Source: Hyphomicrobiales bacterium | Lineage (GTDB): Bacteria > Pseudomonadota > Alphaproteobacteria > Rhizobiales > JACESI01 | Length of the DNA: 64,000 nt | Direction: 5' to 3' | NCBI GenBank assembly: GCA_039973685.1 | Contig: JBDWKL010000046.1 | Coordinates: forward strand, 1 to 64,000 | Shown here: positions 7,554 through 46,842 of the stretch, one piece after another | How the letters are laid out: each line of letters opens with the position of its first letter | Position numbering within the stretch: the first letter of the stretch is position 1 | Position numbers and translations under genes: made by a program | Notes under the pieces: generated by a model | Database searches by the model: none | What the model was told of the DNA's origin: nothing | The model's input: only the letters and a program-made list of their open reading frames with translations

Positions 7554-8534
7554 TTATGGAATAAGAACTGTTGTGCCTGTTGTTTGGCGACCTTCAAGTG
7601 CTTCATGGGCCGCGACCGCATCCCGCAAATCAAATTGCTGATTGATCGATATATCGACATGCCCTTGACCGACAACATCAAACAAATCTTTCGCCATTGC
7701 TTCCAAATCTTCGCGCTTGGCGGTGTAGTTGAATAATGTTGGACGCGTTGCAAACAACGAGCCTTTTTGCGCAAGCGATGCGAGGTTGAAATCGGTGATC
7801 GGTCCGGACGATTGGCCGAATGATACCCACGTACCCAAGGGCTTCAAACAATCGAGTGATCCCGGATGCGTATCCTTACCAACGGAATCGTAGACAACAT
7901 CTGCGCCATTGCCATCAGTAATTTCAGCAACCTTGGCGACAAAATCCTCATCACGGTACAAAATTGTGTGGTCGCACCCATTGGCTTTTGCAAGAGCTGC
8001 TTTTTCTTCAGAGCCGACGGTGCCAATAACCTTGGCACCCAAATGCTGAGCCCATTGGCAAACGATAAGCCCGACACCACCAGCGGCGGCATGAATAAGA
8101 ATGGTGTCGCCTGCTTTGACATCATAAGTACGGCGCAACAAATATTGAGCCGTTAAGCCCTTAAGCATCATGGCAGCGGCTGTTTTGTCGTCTACAGAAT
8201 CTGGAATACTAACAAGCTTATCGACAGGCACCACACGGTCGGTGGTGTAGGCACCAAGTGGCAAAACGTAAGCAACACGGTCGCCTATTTCCAAATTGGT
8301 AACGCCTGCACCGATCATCTCAACGACACCCGCAGCCTCAGCGCCTGGCGTGAACGGCAATCCACCAGCCGCTGGATAAAGCCCTGAACGGAAATAAGTG
8401 TCGATGAAATTCACACCAATGGCCGTGTGACGCACCAAAACTTCACCGGAGCCAGGTGTTTGCGTGTCTGTCGTTTCAAATTTCATCACATCTGGCCCGC
8501 CTGTTTCGCGAACGATCATCGAATTTGTCATCAA
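7554..8534 (-). CDS. NADPH:quinone oxidoreductase (zinc-free MDR family)
   Basis: A 326-residue medium-chain reductase of the QOR/zeta-crystallin type. The N-terminal GroES-like domain contains FIDTYFRSGLYP, followed by the nucleotide-binding domain with HAAAGGVGLIVCQWAQ, the usual AxxGGVG dinucleotide motif. Cysteine and histidine ligands for zinc are absent, as expected for this branch. It probably reduces quinones or enone electrophiles with NADPH in the cytoplasm. Two closely spaced Met codons allow starts at 8534 or 8531. It is upstream of, and probably transcribed with, the ArsC-like gene, which fits a redox or electrophile stress role, though that link is inference. Confidence 0.85.
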   Translation of the reverse strand: MMTNSMIVRETGGPDVMKFETTDTQTPGSGEVLVRHTAIGVNFIDTYFRSGLYPAAGGLPFTPGAEAAGVVEMIGAGVTNLEIGDRVAYVLPLGAYTTDRVVPVDKLVSIPDSVDDKTAAAMMLKGLTAQYLLRRTYDVKAGDTILIHAAAGGVGLIVCQWAQHLGAKVIGTVGSEEKAALAKANGCDHTILYRDEDFVAKVAEITDGNGADVVYDSVGKDTHPGSLDCLKPLGTWVSFGQSSGPITDFNLASLAQKGSLFATRPTLFNYTAKREDLEAMAKDLFDVVGQGHVDISINQQFDLRDAVAAHEALEGRQTTGTTVLIP

Positions 8535-8648
8535 TTATGCCTTCCGTAATGAGAACTTATCTAAATACTCTATTTGGTTTTGTGGTAATATGTTAGAGCC
8601 TGTTCCGCAATTAAAATAACCCACTACACCCGATAAAGAGGACCAATC

Positions 8649-9815
8649 TTGGCAGACGCCGTTATAAAAGCAAATGTAGTCGTGGTTGGCGCTGGTCCGC
8701 TTGGTTTAATGGCGGCTCTTGCGCTTGCGAAATCATCAAACAGCATTGTCCTCATCGGCCCCAAAGCACCCGTAGATGGCCGCACAACGGCGATCTTGAA
8801 TGAAGGTGTCTCTTTTTTGGAGCAAATCGGCGTATGGGACGCCCTCCAAACTCAAACGGCGCCCTTGCGTATTATGCGGTTGGTTGATGGAACAAACCGC
8901 CTCATCCGCGCACCTGAAGCAAGCTTTGATGCCAATGAATTAGACCTGCCAGCTTTTGGCTATAACGTCAAAAACAACGACCTGCTTACCGTCCTCCAAA
9001 ATGCGATCAACGAAAACGCCAATATCAAATGGTACGAAAACCTAGTTGAAGAGTGCACATTAGATGAGGCCCCTCACCTAACTTTAGACAATGGCACGCG
9101 TGTCGAAGGCTCGCTCATTGTCGCAGCTGACGGTCGAGGCTCCAGACTTCGCGATGCGGCAGGTATCGAAACCAAGACATGGCAATATCCACAAACAGCC
9201 TTGGTAATGAACCTGAGGCACACCCGCGACCATCAAAACGCTTCGACTGAGTTCCACACAGAAACTGGCCCTTTTACGCTGGTGCCATTGCCAGGCAAGC
9301 AATCAAGTCTTGTTTGGGTTGAAACACCAGAAAAAGCGGCTGAGCTTAAAACCTTGCCCCTCGAAGAATTGAGCGCGCTTGTATCCGAAAAATCCCATCA
9401 CCTACTTGGGGACGTGACCGTTCAAAACAAACCGATGGCCTATCCCTTATCTGGCCTAACGGCATTAGAATACGGACGAAACAAAGTCGTCTTAATTGGA
9501 GAAAGCGCGCATGTCTTCCCGCCCATTGGGGCACAGGGCATGAACCTTGGTATTCGTGACATCAAAGTTGTGAGTGAATTGTTGGAAGGACAAACAATCA
9601 ATAACGCAGGTGAAGTTGACGCCCTTGTCGATCAGTATTCTGCGAAGCGTAAAATTGATATTTCTGTTCGAACCCGCGCGGTAGATGCATTGAACCGATC
9701 TTTGCTAACCGACTTATTGCCCGTGCATCTTGGGCGTGGTCTTGGTCTTTATGCTCTTAATAAAATCCCGTCTGCGCGCAAGTTCGTTATGCGTCAGGGC
9801 CTTGGTGCTCGTTGA
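8649..9815 (+). CDS. UbiH/UbiF/Coq6-type FAD-dependent hydroxylase
   Basis: A 388-residue flavoprotein monooxygenase of the ubiquinone-hydroxylase family. The FAD dinucleotide fold is at the N-terminus (VVGAGPLGLMAALAL), the ring-proximal motif is AADGRGSRLRDAAG, and the late FAD motif is GESAHVFPPIGAQGMNLGIRD. Such enzymes insert ring hydroxyl groups in ubiquinone synthesis; which position cannot be told from sequence. The start is a TTG preceded by AGAGGA at good spacing. The stop overlaps the TTG start of the acyltransferase gene, so translation is probably coupled. Confidence 0.85.
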   Translation: MADAVIKANVVVVGAGPLGLMAALALAKSSNSIVLIGPKAPVDGRTTAILNEGVSFLEQIGVWDALQTQTAPLRIMRLVDGTNRLIRAPEASFDANELDLPAFGYNVKNNDLLTVLQNAINENANIKWYENLVEECTLDEAPHLTLDNGTRVEGSLIVAADGRGSRLRDAAGIETKTWQYPQTALVMNLRHTRDHQNASTEFHTETGPFTLVPLPGKQSSLVWVETPEKAAELKTLPLEELSALVSEKSHHLLGDVTVQNKPMAYPLSGLTALEYGRNKVVLIGESAHVFPPIGAQGMNLGIRDIKVVSELLEGQTINNAGEVDALVDQYSAKRKIDISVRTRAVDALNRSLLTDLLPVHLGRGLGLYALNKIPSARKFVMRQGLGAR

Positions 9816-41438: not shown

Positions 41439-42176
41439 CTAGCTCGCCTCTTCTTCAAGAATATATTTCTTCATGATGTCCGCCATTTGTTGCGGCTCTA
41501 AGATCGGCGGCACCAAGGTTTTAACTTTGCCGTCTGGACCAAGCAGATAGATGAAGCTGCCGTGGTTATAGATCGGGTTATTGTCAATATCTGTCCCGAC
41601 AAATTCAATCCGCACTTGAAACTTCTTGCGTACATCCGCCAACTGACCTTCAGAACCCGTCATACCGACAAGTGCTGGATGATATTCCGCCAGTTTCTCA
41701 CGCATGAAGTCAGGCGTATCATTTTCAGGATCGACCGTGATCATCAGCGGCACTAGGTCTGCTTTGGCTTTATCGCCCAGCAAATCAATCGTATCAGCCA
41801 TCAAAGGCAAGGCAGCAGAGCAAATGGCGAGGCAATTGGCATAGCCAAAAAATACCATCACATGCTTGCCCGCATAATCTTCCAACTGTTTCGGCTGACC
41901 AAAATGGTCAATTAGATCGAACGAACCGCCGAGATTAGTGCCAAACAATGCTGCTTGGAGGTCATCCGCTGACAGCGGGGCATTTGGAAGTGCTGCTGTT
42001 TGCGAGGATGTTTGCGGCTTTGCAACACTTGAAGAAGGCGCAGCATTGTCCGGAGTGCTCACTGATGCACTCGCGATCTTTGCTCCCTCATCTTGAGGCG
42101 CAAAAAAGAAGGCCGCCGCACTAAAACTAAGTGCGGCAAGCCCTGTTATGTATAGACCAGCAAAAAGCGGTTTCAT
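41439..42176 (-). CDS. SCO1/SenC-family copper chaperone/thiol protein
   Basis: A 245-residue membrane-anchored periplasmic thioredoxin-fold protein. An N-terminal helix (LYITGLAALSFSAAAFFFA) is followed by a Ser/Pro-rich linker and the SCO domain. The copper/redox motif is Cys115-Cys119 in GYANCLAICSAA, with the partner His205 in NHGSFIYLL. SCO proteins deliver copper to the CuA site of cytochrome oxidase or reduce thiols. It starts 11 bases after the upstream Cys-rich gene and is the third gene of a compact unit. No cox genes are nearby, so its client may be its neighbours. Confidence 0.88.
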   Translation of the reverse strand: MKPLFAGLYITGLAALSFSAAAFFFAPQDEGAKIASASVSTPDNAAPSSSVAKPQTSSQTAALPNAPLSADDLQAALFGTNLGGSFDLIDHFGQPKQLEDYAGKHVMVFFGYANCLAICSAALPLMADTIDLLGDKAKADLVPLMITVDPENDTPDFMREKLAEYHPALVGMTGSEGQLADVRKKFQVRIEFVGTDIDNNPIYNHGSFIYLLGPDGKVKTLVPPILEPQQMADIMKKYILEEEAS

Positions 42177-42187
42177 TACGTAATCAA

Positions 42188-42739
42188 CTAGTAGTTTTCA
42201 GCAATGAATTTCTTATCAACATCAGCACCAAGGCCAAGCCAACCGTCTTTTTCAAGTTGAGCTTTCACCCGTGGGTCACGACGGAACCAAGGACCTTTTC
42301 CACCAGCGTCAGGATATTTCTTTTTCCATGTTTTAGTGTGCAAATTAGCCTTCGCCCACTCACCACCTTCAACTTTAATCAGCTGAATTTGATAAAGTTG
42401 CTCAGGAATATCTGCACCAACAAGAAGTCCGTCCACTTCGACGTTCTTGCCGCAGTATGGAAGAAGATCATCGATTGCACCGTTGAACGATGTTTGGCCG
42501 TTTTTCATTGGCGGAATAAGCTTGCCGTCTGTGGTCAAAATGCCAAGTTGGTAAGCACCAGCTCCGCATTCGTCAGCGCAGTTGCCTGTAACTTCACAAC
42601 GAATATCAACAATCTTACCAGAGAAAATTGCTTTCTTTTCGTCAACAAGGTTCCAGTTTTTCGCCTTACTGTTGGGATCATCAGCCATTGCAGCAAATGG
42701 GAACGAAGCGGCGCACAAAGCTATAATTAGTTTTTTCAT
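42188..42739 (-). CDS. Cys-rich periplasmic protein B, SCO-linked, unknown function
   Basis: A 183-residue exported protein (signal peptide ending AAMA, residue 19). The core SGKIVDIRCEVTGNCADECG (Cys48, 54, 58) leads into a beta-rich part (LGILTTDGKL, VEVDGLLVG, YQIQLIKVEGG). This lines up well with the upstream protein A, so the two look like paralogues with an OB-like fold. The C-terminal 55 residues are extra: charged, aromatic, with WKKKYPDAGG and GPWFRRDPR. I do not know the function. Four conserved-looking Cys (with Cys96) in an operon with SCO suggest metal binding or thiol exchange. Confidence 0.75.
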   Translation of the reverse strand: MKKLIIALCAASFPFAAMADDPNSKAKNWNLVDEKKAIFSGKIVDIRCEVTGNCADECGAGAYQLGILTTDGKLIPPMKNGQTSFNGAIDDLLPYCGKNVEVDGLLVGADIPEQLYQIQLIKVEGGEWAKANLHTKTWKKKYPDAGGKGPWFRRDPRVKAQLEKDGWLGLGADVDKKFIAENY

Positions 42740-42743
42740 GGTG

Positions 42744-43211
42744 TTAGCCTCCTCGTGCAGATTTTGGAATTGAGAACGCAGGGATCACGCCAAAATCTTC
42801 GTGGTTGAGATTGGTGATGCCTTCGTTTGACACAACTTTTTCAACGACAAGATATTTAAATCCATCACGCTCATAAAGCATCGCGTCTGCAGTGATCCGA
42901 TCAGATTGGATATCTAGGAGGGTATCGTTACCATCACCGGTACCAGAACCTTCAACTTCAAGAACCAAGTAAACTTCGCCTTCATCGGTCAACAATCCAA
43001 CAGGAATGCCGCCCGCAGCACACCAAACAGCGCAGGTATGGTGAGCAGAACCCACAACGGCATCTTGACCGCCCATAACGCCAGAATAATAACACCAAGT
43101 GTCCATAATTTCGCCAGATACTTGAACCCGTTGTGGTTCAGTGGCGGCAAATGCAGATACCGAGCTTGCTGCAACAATACATGCTGCCAAGGTCGATTTT
43201 AAAACTTTCAT
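42744..43211 (-). CDS. Cys/His-rich periplasmic protein A, SCO-linked, unknown function
   Basis: A 155-residue exported protein with a clear signal peptide (VSAFA). The conserved core is SGEIMDTWCYYSG (Cys40), then AHHTCAVWC (His57, His58, Cys60, Cys64) and GGIPVGLLTDEGEVYLVL. The spacing suits a metal site or a disulphide relay. GGGAG-type sequence precedes the ATG, and the gene is followed after four bases by protein B. Proteins with this GEVxDxxCY...C...C...PxGLL pattern occur in many bacteria without assigned function, to my knowledge. It is the first gene of the unit with B and SCO. Confidence 0.75.
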   Translation of the reverse strand: MKVLKSTLAACIVAASSVSAFAATEPQRVQVSGEIMDTWCYYSGVMGGQDAVVGSAHHTCAVWCAAGGIPVGLLTDEGEVYLVLEVEGSGTGDGNDTLLDIQSDRITADAMLYERDGFKYLVVEKVVSNEGITNLNHEDFGVIPAFSIPKSARGG

Positions 43212-43344
43212 AGCGATCTCCCAATTAACTAAGTCTCAGAAGATAACATATATGAGAAGAGGTCAATACCGCCCGTCTCAAACTATCGTTATTCTCCTTG
43301 GCGTTATGGTCTTAAAGTTCGAGCGCACTTGAAGCGGAACTCTC

Positions 43345-46300
43345 CTATTCCGCTGCTTCTTTCAAGCGTTTTGGCTCAATCGCTGGTGGATTGTCGAGAC
43401 GGTTCATCAAATCCGCATTTTTTGCATAATATTCAGCAATAGCCTTTTCTTTAATCGGGCCATACCCTCGAACATCTTTTGGCAAGGCTGCGATTTCGAT
43501 GCCGAGTGATTCGGTTTTTCGCGAAACTTGTCTCAACACATGACGGATTGTCTTTTCGTAATCCTTGATCAATTGACGCTCAGCACGACGCTCTTCTGTG
43601 TAACCGAAGATATCAAATGGCGTCCCTCGCAAGAACTTAAATTTCTTCATCAAACGGAACATGCGCAGCATGGACGGACCATATTTCTTTTTCTTTGGTC
43701 GGCCATTATTCGGATCAATTTTCGACATTAACGGCGGCGCCAAATGGAAGTTTAAACGCCCGCCTTTTTCAAATGTTTGAGCGACTTCTGCCTCAAATTC
43801 TGGCGTAGTGAAGAGACGCGCAACTTCATACTCATCTTTGTAAGAAAGCAGTTTTGCGTAATTTCTGGCAATCTCAACCGTAATCGTATCGCTCACTCCA
43901 GCGTTCAACGTTCCATCCTGACATTTTGCCATGAAGGCGCGGAAACGTTTGGCGAGTGCTTTATTTTGATACTTCGTCAAATGCTGGGCGCGGTGTTCAA
44001 CGATCTCTTCCAAGGTTTGCGGAATGACCACATGCTTCGGCATAGAGTCACCAAGCAGGTTTTTTAAGCGTTCTGGATCATGAGCCAGCAAGCGCCCCCA
44101 GTTAAAGGCACGCAAGTTAAATTCAACAGCAACGCCGTTTAGTTCAACCGCTCGTTCAATGGCCTCGCGTGTTACTGGCAATTTACCTGTTTGATAGGCG
44201 TAACCAACCATCATGATGTTGGTCGCAATGGTGTCACCACATGCTGCTTCAGCAATCTCTGTGAAGTTGTGGGTGCTGAGATCATCGCCAACGGCATCTT
44301 TGATTTTACCCATCACCGCATATTCTTGGAAATCAAAATCGCGCTCACGCACAAATTCTTGCGTTGGAGTTAGGTGGGAATTAACGACACCTGATGTGTG
44401 ATCCTCTTCGCAAAGCACAACACCATCCACGGTGCCAGCAACAACATTATCAGCCGCGATCAGCAAATCAGCAGATCCTGTCGACAAGCGAGCAGATCCG
44501 ATGTCTTCTGTATTCTCGGCAAGTCTCAAATGACTAATAACCGCCCCGCCCTTTTGGGCAATGCCAGACATATCGAGGATGTTTGCAGCTTTTCCGTCAA
44601 GGTGCGCGGCCATGCCGATGATTGCGCCAACAGTCAAAACACCCGTTCCGCCCACGCCTGTCACAGCAATATTATACGGTTTGTTTAATGCAGGCGTTTT
44701 TTGCGCATCTGGCAGAAAGGAGAAATCGACGTTTTGAAGGCCTTCGCTCTTCTTCAAATCAGCACCCTCAACCGTCACAAAGGACGGGCAGAAGCCGTTT
44801 ACGCAGGAGAAGTCCTTGTTACAGGAAGATTGATTGATCTTACGCTTACGTCCAAGTGGCGTTTCCAGTGGTTCTACCGAAACGCAATTTGATTGAACGG
44901 AACAATCACCACAGCCTTCACAAACGGCTGAATTGATCAAGACGCGTTTTGATGGGTCTTCCATCAAACCACGCTTACGACGACGTCGTTTTTCCGCAGC
45001 ACAGGTCTGATCATAAACGATTGCCGTACAACCTGGTGTTTCTTTCAAATCAAGCATAGCAGCATCAAGTGTGTCGCGATGGCCTAGGGTTACGCCCGGC
45101 GCCAAAGATGATTGTGGGTAGCGCTCTGGTTCATCTGAAATCAGATAGATTTTATTGACACCTTCATGGTGCAACTGGTGCGTGATTTGCGGAGGCGTTA
45201 AGCTGCCGTCCACCGATTGCCCGCCTGTCATGGCGACAGCGTCATTATAGAGAATTTTGTAGGTTATATTCGCACCACTGGATACAGCTTGGCGGATGGC
45301 CAATGAGCCAGAGTGGAAGTAAGTTCCGTCGCCTAAGTTAGCGAAAATATGATTTTCTTTGGTGTAAGGCGCTGATCCTGTCCACGCGATACCTTCACCA
45401 CCCATATGGCTAAAGGTTTCCGTATTGCGGTCCATCCAAAGCACCATAAAATGGCACCCAATCCCGCCAAGCGCACGGCTACCGTCTGGCAGTTTTGTTG
45501 ATGAGTTATGCGGGCAGCCAGAACAGAAATAAGGCAATCTTTCAGTCGCGGCCACATGCTTCTTGCGCATTTCTGCACGGCGAGCAAACCAATCTAGTTT
45601 TTTCTGCAATTGCTCTTTTAGGCCAGAATCCATTTGCACCTTCATCACAAGGTTACAAATTGCACGGGCAATAACGCCTGTGGTCAGCTCTGTGCCCAAT
45701 GGCAACAACGGTTTGTCTTCATGGTCAAATTTGCCGATCACCGTTGGTCGCTTGTTCGGCGTCCAATTGTAGAGCTGCTGTTTGATTTGATTTTCAATGA
45801 TTTCACGACGTTCTTCGACCACAAGTATGGTATCCAAACCTTCAGCAAATTCTCGCACGCCATAAGGTTCTAGTGGCCAAGGCATCGCTACTTTGTAGAC
45901 ACGAAGACCGAGACGGTCGGCCGTTACCTCGTCTATCTCTAATTCACGCAGTGCTTGACGCACGTCTTCATACGATTTGCCAGACGCAATGATGCCAATG
46001 CGCGGACGTTTGGTGTCCATCACAACATGATCAAGCTTGTTTGCTCGTGCCCACGCAAGAGCGGCATATGCTTTTTGCTCTTGCAAGCGTTGGTCCTGTG
46101 CCCAGCGATCATCTGGCCAACGAATATTGAGCCCGCCTTCAGGCATATCAAAATCAGTCGGCTCAACGAATTGGCGCATCTCACCTGCAAGATCAACCAC
46201 GCCGGTGGTTTCAATCGTATCGGCGATCACTTTCATGCCTGTCCAGCAACCAGAATAACGCGACATCGCAATGCCTGCCAAACCCAGTTCCAAAAACTCA

Positions 46301-46842
46301 CCTGCATGACTTGGATAAAGCATCGGCATCACAGCGCTCATAAAGGCGTGATCAGACTGATGCGGTAATGTTGATGATTTGGCTGCATGGTCATCACCCG
46401 CCAAACACAAAACGCCGCCATGCTTGCTGCTACCTGCAGCATTACCGTGTTTGAAAACATCGCCCGAACGATCAACGCCCGGCCCTTTGCCGTACCAAAT
46501 GCCAAACACGCCATCATATTCAGCGCCCGGCGACAAATGGAGTTGTTGGCTTCCCCACACAGCGGTCGCGGCCAATTCTTCATTTACACCGGGTTGAAAT
46601 TTTACGTTGTGTTGATCCAGCCAGATTTTACTTTTTTGAAGTTGCTGGTCGTAATTACCAAGGGGCGAACCGCGATAGCCTGAAATGAAGCCACCAGTTT
46701 TCAAGCCCGCAGCACGGTCTCGTTTAATCTGCGTCATCGGCAAGCGAATGAGGGTTTGAATCCCACTCATAAAGACCTTACCACTTTCTGCGTTGTACTT
46801 GTCTTCCAAAGTCACATGTGCATTCGGCAGTTCGTGCTTCAT
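43345..46842 (-). CDS. fused indolepyruvate:ferredoxin oxidoreductase-type enzyme
   Basis: An 1165-residue thiamine-dependent 2-oxoacid oxidoreductase in which the alpha and beta functions of IorA/IorB are one chain. The N-terminal half binds TPP (FISGYRGSPLGNYDQQL; GCHFMVLWMDRNTETFSHMGGEG; FANLGDGTYFHSGSLAIRQAV). A ferredoxin-like segment has CEGCGDCSVQSNCVSVE, and CSGCPHNSS gives further Cys. The C-terminal part is the IorB-like gamma domain (GVGGTGVLTVGAIIGMAAHLDG). It oxidises aromatic or branched 2-oxoacids to acyl-CoA; substrate specificity is inferred only from the family. It is a single gene with no terminator on either side. Confidence 0.88.
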   Translation of the reverse strand: MKHELPNAHVTLEDKYNAESGKVFMSGIQTLIRLPMTQIKRDRAAGLKTGGFISGYRGSPLGNYDQQLQKSKIWLDQHNVKFQPGVNEELAATAVWGSQQLHLSPGAEYDGVFGIWYGKGPGVDRSGDVFKHGNAAGSSKHGGVLCLAGDDHAAKSSTLPHQSDHAFMSAVMPMLYPSHAGEFLELGLAGIAMSRYSGCWTGMKVIADTIETTGVVDLAGEMRQFVEPTDFDMPEGGLNIRWPDDRWAQDQRLQEQKAYAALAWARANKLDHVVMDTKRPRIGIIASGKSYEDVRQALRELEIDEVTADRLGLRVYKVAMPWPLEPYGVREFAEGLDTILVVEERREIIENQIKQQLYNWTPNKRPTVIGKFDHEDKPLLPLGTELTTGVIARAICNLVMKVQMDSGLKEQLQKKLDWFARRAEMRKKHVAATERLPYFCSGCPHNSSTKLPDGSRALGGIGCHFMVLWMDRNTETFSHMGGEGIAWTGSAPYTKENHIFANLGDGTYFHSGSLAIRQAVSSGANITYKILYNDAVAMTGGQSVDGSLTPPQITHQLHHEGVNKIYLISDEPERYPQSSLAPGVTLGHRDTLDAAMLDLKETPGCTAIVYDQTCAAEKRRRRKRGLMEDPSKRVLINSAVCEGCGDCSVQSNCVSVEPLETPLGRKRKINQSSCNKDFSCVNGFCPSFVTVEGADLKKSEGLQNVDFSFLPDAQKTPALNKPYNIAVTGVGGTGVLTVGAIIGMAAHLDGKAANILDMSGIAQKGGAVISHLRLAENTEDIGSARLSTGSADLLIAADNVVAGTVDGVVLCEEDHTSGVVNSHLTPTQEFVRERDFDFQEYAVMGKIKDAVGDDLSTHNFTEIAEAACGDTIATNIMMVGYAYQTGKLPVTREAIERAVELNGVAVEFNLRAFNWGRLLAHDPERLKNLLGDSMPKHVVIPQTLEEIVEHRAQHLTKYQNKALAKRFRAFMAKCQDGTLNAGVSDTITVEIARNYAKLLSYKDEYEVARLFTTPEFEAEVAQTFEKGGRLNFHLAPPLMSKIDPNNGRPKKKKYGPSMLRMFRLMKKFKFLRGTPFDIFGYTEERRAERQLIKDYEKTIRHVLRQVSRKTESLGIEIAALPKDVRGYGPIKEKAIAEYYAKNADLMNRLDNPPAIEPKRLKEAAE

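Follow-up and report, generated by a model that had tools for sequence, protein, structure and literature searches.

Two paralogous cysteine-rich exported proteins and a dedicated SCO protein form a conserved alphaproteobacterial operon with a possible role in periplasmic copper or thiol handling

Periplasmic copper delivery in alphaproteobacteria is currently framed in terms of PCuAC, SCO and CtaG. SCO proteins contribute to assembly of the Cu-A site in oxidase subunit II, and they can also work as thiol-disulfide reductases that deliver no copper. CusF is a small OB-fold periplasmic Cu(I) chaperone whose His/Met/Trp site contains no Cys. PCuAC has been proposed to transfer copper to SCO or together with it (PMC12617631). 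In Caulobacter, oxidase activity does not need the two SCOs (PMC12617631); hence, the presence of an SCO is not in itself proof of copper delivery to an oxidase. In the mtoX-SCO-mauG operon (PMC5739008) and in the iox cluster with the iodide oxidase IoxA (PMC9415286), SCO is encoded beside a presumed copper-enzyme client.

The window, a 64,000-nucleotide stretch from a Hyphomicrobiales bacterium, also holds an SCO gene within one operon, but where the mtoX and iox systems contain a copper enzyme, this operon contains two small proteins of no assigned function, A and B. The three genes run in tandem along the minus strand (41439-43211) in the order A, B, SCO, with gaps of 4 bases between A and B and 11 bases between B and SCO. 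The original prediction had described this three-gene run with SCO 11 bases past B, and all three open reading frames are present (Table 1). Read from the sequence, the N-termini of A and B carry typical export signals and that of SCO a hydrophobic anchor. From these signals, we infer that the module is periplasmic and that SCO is probably anchored in the inner membrane. In the intergenic region upstream of A, a promoter scan returned one weak promoter-like site, no excess over shuffled sequences; there was no clear conserved motif across four congeners and no match in an Rfam scan. A gene on the same strand (43345-46842), 133 bp upstream of A, encodes a 1165-aa fused protein of the indolepyruvate-ferredoxin-oxidoreductase type with POR, TPP and DUF6537 domains. 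It is kept within the genus and was seen beside A in no other lineage.

Table 1. Features of the A-B-SCO locus (positions in the window)
Feature	Position	Strand	Description	Basis
Protein A	42744..43211	-	155 aa, exported, Cys-rich, predicted OB-like fold	ORF and translation, AF2 model, invariant residues
Protein A signal			Sec-type: MKVLKSTLAACIVAASSVSAFA	Read from sequence
Protein B	42188..42739	-	183 aa, exported paralogue of A	ORF and translation, AF2 model, homology to A
SCO1/SenC-family protein	41439..42176	-	245 aa, apparently membrane-anchored	PF02630, human SCO1 match, tree
Upstream intergenic region	43212..43344	.	133 bp	Promoter, motif and Rfam scans

The operon is conserved in many alphaproteobacteria. 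Counting the window, we collected 31 separate loci from order-level genomes, GTDB contigs and class-level genomes. B directly follows A in 31/31 of them, and SCO directly follows B in 28/31. In a class sample of 289 alphaproteobacterial genomes, strong-scoring matches of A and of B came from one and the same set of 10 genomes (hypergeometric p = 1e-18), with one extra marginal B match (E = 9.5e-4); the A profile also gave weak matches to the membrane-bound A-like proteins dealt with further on. All matches in a phylum sample of 398 genomes, whose make-up is not given, were alphaproteobacterial. Plasmids yielded no A of the operon type and a single distant A-domain protein, and no A was found in viral contigs. 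Pairing of A with B is near-obligate. The co-occurrence of A, B and SCO in other genomes, which the original prediction had proposed to check, holds as well: A-B without SCO is not widespread, and for one of the three loci that have no adjacent SCO, a same-clade SCO lies elsewhere in the genome.

No recognisable cuproenzyme lies inside the operon, and no neighbouring gene recurs at all loci. Recurrent neighbours are restricted to single lineages: at four Rhodobacterales loci (L039, L040, L042 and L070) the next gene after the operon encodes a rhodanese-like exported protein, and at three of these an esterase comes next that has a relative near the A-like locus L078. At L025 a metallo-beta-lactamase-fold protein is divergent from A. 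A related thiamine-diphosphate enzyme lies near A-B-SCO, A-like or orphan SCO loci at L026, L078, L142, L153 and L154, a recurrence that may be due to chance.

The SCO protein matches PF02630 (E = 2e-36; 125 bits against a cut-off of 22.8) and human SCO1 (E = 1e-23), with which its CxxxC motif and distal His align; both are invariant in the aligned A-B-linked SCOs. It shares these residues and an N-terminal hydrophobic anchor with human SCO1 and with Bradyrhizobium ScoI (Blr1131), but it differs from these SCO1/SenC proteins in that its clade has so far been seen only in A-B genomes and lies neither beside PCuAC nor, generally, beside oxidase genes. In a tree of 55 sequences, all 28 A-B-linked SCOs fell into one clade (support 100/99). 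Its sole unlinked member, L139, comes from G347, where A-B lacks a neighbouring SCO; L139 itself is on a different contig, behind a thiamine-diphosphate enzyme. In G140 and G255, two genomes of one family, A-B likewise has no adjacent SCO; their tree-placed SCOs fell outside the clade, one further G255 SCO having been left out of the tree. Genome G000 has a second SCO, on contig C16. We conclude that this SCO clade is dedicated to A-B, having so far been found only in A-B genomes.

Might A and B simply stand in for PCuAC? Like PCuAC/PccA (PF04314), they are small exported proteins encoded next to SCO. However, they have Cys-rich sites instead of its His/Met motif, and PCuAC is encoded separately in the same genomes. 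Within 22 operon genomes, PCuAC lay within 2 kb of 12/35 other SCOs but of 0/20 A-B-clade SCOs (Fisher p = 0.002). PCuAC itself was present in 22/22 of these genomes. We therefore reject A-B as a substitute for PCuAC and regard it as an addition to the standard route.

The core order that the original prediction had assigned to both A and B is present in the translations. The core starts with SGEIMD in A and SGKIVD in B, each followed by a Cys (C40 in A, C48 in B). Next come two further Cys (C60-x3-C64 in A, C54-x3-C58 in B), the segment VGLLTDEG or LGILTTDG, and a closing strand ending in EKV or IKV, respectively. The predicted H57-H58-x-C60-x3-C64 cluster of A was confirmed, as was the greater length of B (183 against 155 aa), which has its own C-terminal extension. 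The core of A, with invariants taken over 16 diverse members, is C40-x5-M46...H57-H58-x-C60-x3-C64, which adds M46 to the motifs named earlier. The pattern C-x5-M...H-x2-C-x3-C is conserved, with Met and His nearly invariant; His58 is replaced by Tyr in two members and by Phe in one. B has four conserved Cys (C48, C54, C58 and C96), a core without His or Met. CxxxC is common to A, B and SCO.

In 30/31 cases, the Cys count is exactly three in mature A and exactly four in B. With three Cys, at least one thiol of A is unable to form an internal disulfide, and this odd number argues against purely structural disulfides. The exception to these counts is G246, in which an in-frame TGA (L069 8133-8135) replaces a conserved Trp just before C40 of A (DT*CYV) and the B gene (8453-8971) has lost C96. 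These changes may reflect gene decay, a sequencing or assembly error, or recoding.

A and B had also been proposed to be paralogues, and pairwise and profile comparisons bear this out. BLASTP of A against B gave E = 1e-4, and a profile-profile comparison with 12 members per side gave P = 4e-7. With 16-member alignments, hhalign scored the pair at 65.4 (P = 3.5e-10), whereas column shuffles reached at most 24.0 in 200 trials and a reversed control 11.5. The score was still 53.9 with the Cys columns masked; hence, the similarity is independent of the cysteines. Judged by sequence, A and B are genuine paralogues. Their AF2 models, built from 12-sequence alignments (mean pLDDT 67.6 for A and 78.4 for B), have one predicted topology: the A model has strands at 27-37, 71-74, 80-86, 105-115 and 118-129 and a helix at 56-68, and the strand order of the B model matches it. 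Foldseek searches with both models returned mostly what we take to be OB-fold proteins (LysRS and AspRS anticodon domains, RPA, SSB, eIF5A and S1). Since no hit was better than E = 0.04 with B or E = 0.075 with A, we regard an OB fold, predicted by models of moderate confidence, as likely rather than established for both proteins.

Database searches assigned no function to either family, in line with the original prediction, which knew of none. Searches of Pfam, NCBIfam and PHROGs returned nothing significant for either protein; the families of PCuAC (PF04314), CusF and DUF2946/CutF (PF11162) are among those without a match. A sequence profile of A matched nothing in the PDB, B alone gave nothing convincing there, and PDB searches with A and B returned no copper redox protein. 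A PARP identity for A (E = 6e-4) was dropped because the matches vanish with a profile. Although A and B can be likened to CusF as putative small periplasmic carriers with a likely OB fold, their sites would be Cys-based. The portions of the literature on copper trafficking, SCO operons and OB-fold chaperones reached by our searches contain no mention of either family.

Relatives of A occur outside the operon. A copy of the A domain is carried by membrane-anchored two-domain proteins (hhalign 97.7%, P = 1.3e-12) in which the Cys, Met, His, Cys and Cys of the core are invariant. At 14/14 of their loci, the preceding gene on the same strand encodes a fusion of a ferric-reductase-like membrane domain and a Rieske [2Fe-2S] domain (L031-L033, L074-L082, L153 and L154); one Rhizobium copy of this gene pair has a CopD-family gene nearby. 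These A-like proteins, such as WP_168302242.1 ('hypothetical protein'), have a domain homologous to A with the same Cys-Met-His-Cys-Cys core, but they differ from A in having two domains and a membrane anchor, and neither SCO nor B was found in the neighbourhoods examined. None of three members scanned matched a Pfam family. A distant single-domain relative (31% identity, E = 7e-4) is encoded on the Phycisphaera plasmid pPSMK1, among genes for a DUF326 copper-binding protein, a CsoR-type repressor, DUF2946, heavy-metal-binding and YHS domains, a Rieske protein and TolC. This planctomycete locus is the one copper context seen beyond the operon. The three groups have in common the core G-x3-D-x2-C...H-x2-C-x3-C-x3-G-x-P; the Met of the A core is not kept in the Phycisphaera relative. 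The A-B pair belongs to a wider family of Cys/His OB-like domains.

What might the operon do? The original reading of a copper- or thiol-handling system survives these comparisons, since A and B are related and seldom lack SCO, and together they probably represent a new type of copper protein or carrier. We tentatively favour, at somewhat short of even confidence, a self-contained Cu(I)/thiol module of the periplasm, with copper exchanged between the dedicated SCO and its two partners, A and B. A would provide a soft-ligand site of Cys3-His plus Met, and B a Cys4 site. The two would function only as a pair, with their own SCO as partner, and would fill the position held by PCuAC beside canonical SCOs. 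The most likely mechanism is that SCO would swap Cu(I) with A and B, or would reduce and load their CxxxC motifs. Copper as the metal, and direct contact of A and B with SCO, are what we infer. In favour of the module are the constant A-B pairing, the dedicated SCO clade, the distribution of PCuAC, the odd Cys number of A and the copper cluster in Phycisphaera. Counting against it are the lack of a recognisable cuproenzyme in the operon and of a gene common to all loci, the ability of SCO proteins to act as reductases alone, the single Phycisphaera locus, the two A-B genomes with no SCO of the clade among those placed in the tree, and the dispensable SCOs of Caulobacter.

Perhaps A and B are instead the target of SCO? 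In this main rival to the exchange module, A and B would be copper proteins under assembly, a new OB-fold copper redox class whose Cys/Met/His site is built by SCO. Dedicated SCOs elsewhere sit with the copper enzyme that they presumably mature, namely MtoX (PMC5739008) and IoxA (PMC9415286), and the operon holds no other candidate enzyme. The near-invariant CxxxC, His and Met of A are consistent with such a site, and the constant position of A-like domains after the ferric-reductase/Rieske fusion fits an electron-transfer setting. However, the PDB searches returned no copper redox protein, the A-like loci have no detected SCO, and the conserved Cys core of B is without His or Met. We consider this reading unlikely. 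Its fuller form, a new copper protein class consisting of an obligate OB-fold pair with Cys-Met-His-Cys-Cys (A) and Cys4 (B) sites, assembled by its own SCO and related to the ferric-reductase/Rieske electron-transfer and planctomycete copper-cluster domain, strikes us as rather unlikely.

A metal-free relay would have SCO work as a thiol-disulfide reductase and maintain reduced cysteines in A and B, or in a client of theirs. It would agree with the CxxxC of all three proteins, with the rhodanese-like protein at the four Rhodobacterales loci and with the metallo-beta-lactamase-fold neighbour at L025. Yet SCO retains its distal copper-ligand His, the conserved His and Met of A are unnecessary for simple dithiol chemistry, and a distant relative of A lies in a copper cluster; we judge the relay quite doubtful. 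Dedicated maturation of one known cuproenzyme encoded elsewhere is improbable: although G000 encodes MtoX without an adjacent SCO (on contig C12, not next to A-B-SCO) and in G009 an unusual COX2-COX1-cupredoxin cluster (L028:2367-5399) is some 2 kb away from the operon, neither is a general partner, as MtoX occurs in just 3/10 operon genomes against 20/289 overall (p = 0.11 with the window genome left out) and, of 44 genomes tested, just two, both from one family, have the G009-type haem-copper oxidase.

Because A and B form a near-obligate pair and have an SCO clade of their own, a copper module is an idea that can be tested directly. If it is true, two undescribed protein families and a private SCO would constitute a third, widely scattered module of periplasmic copper handling in alphaproteobacteria, and would mean that a route, or a class of copper protein, is missing from the current picture.
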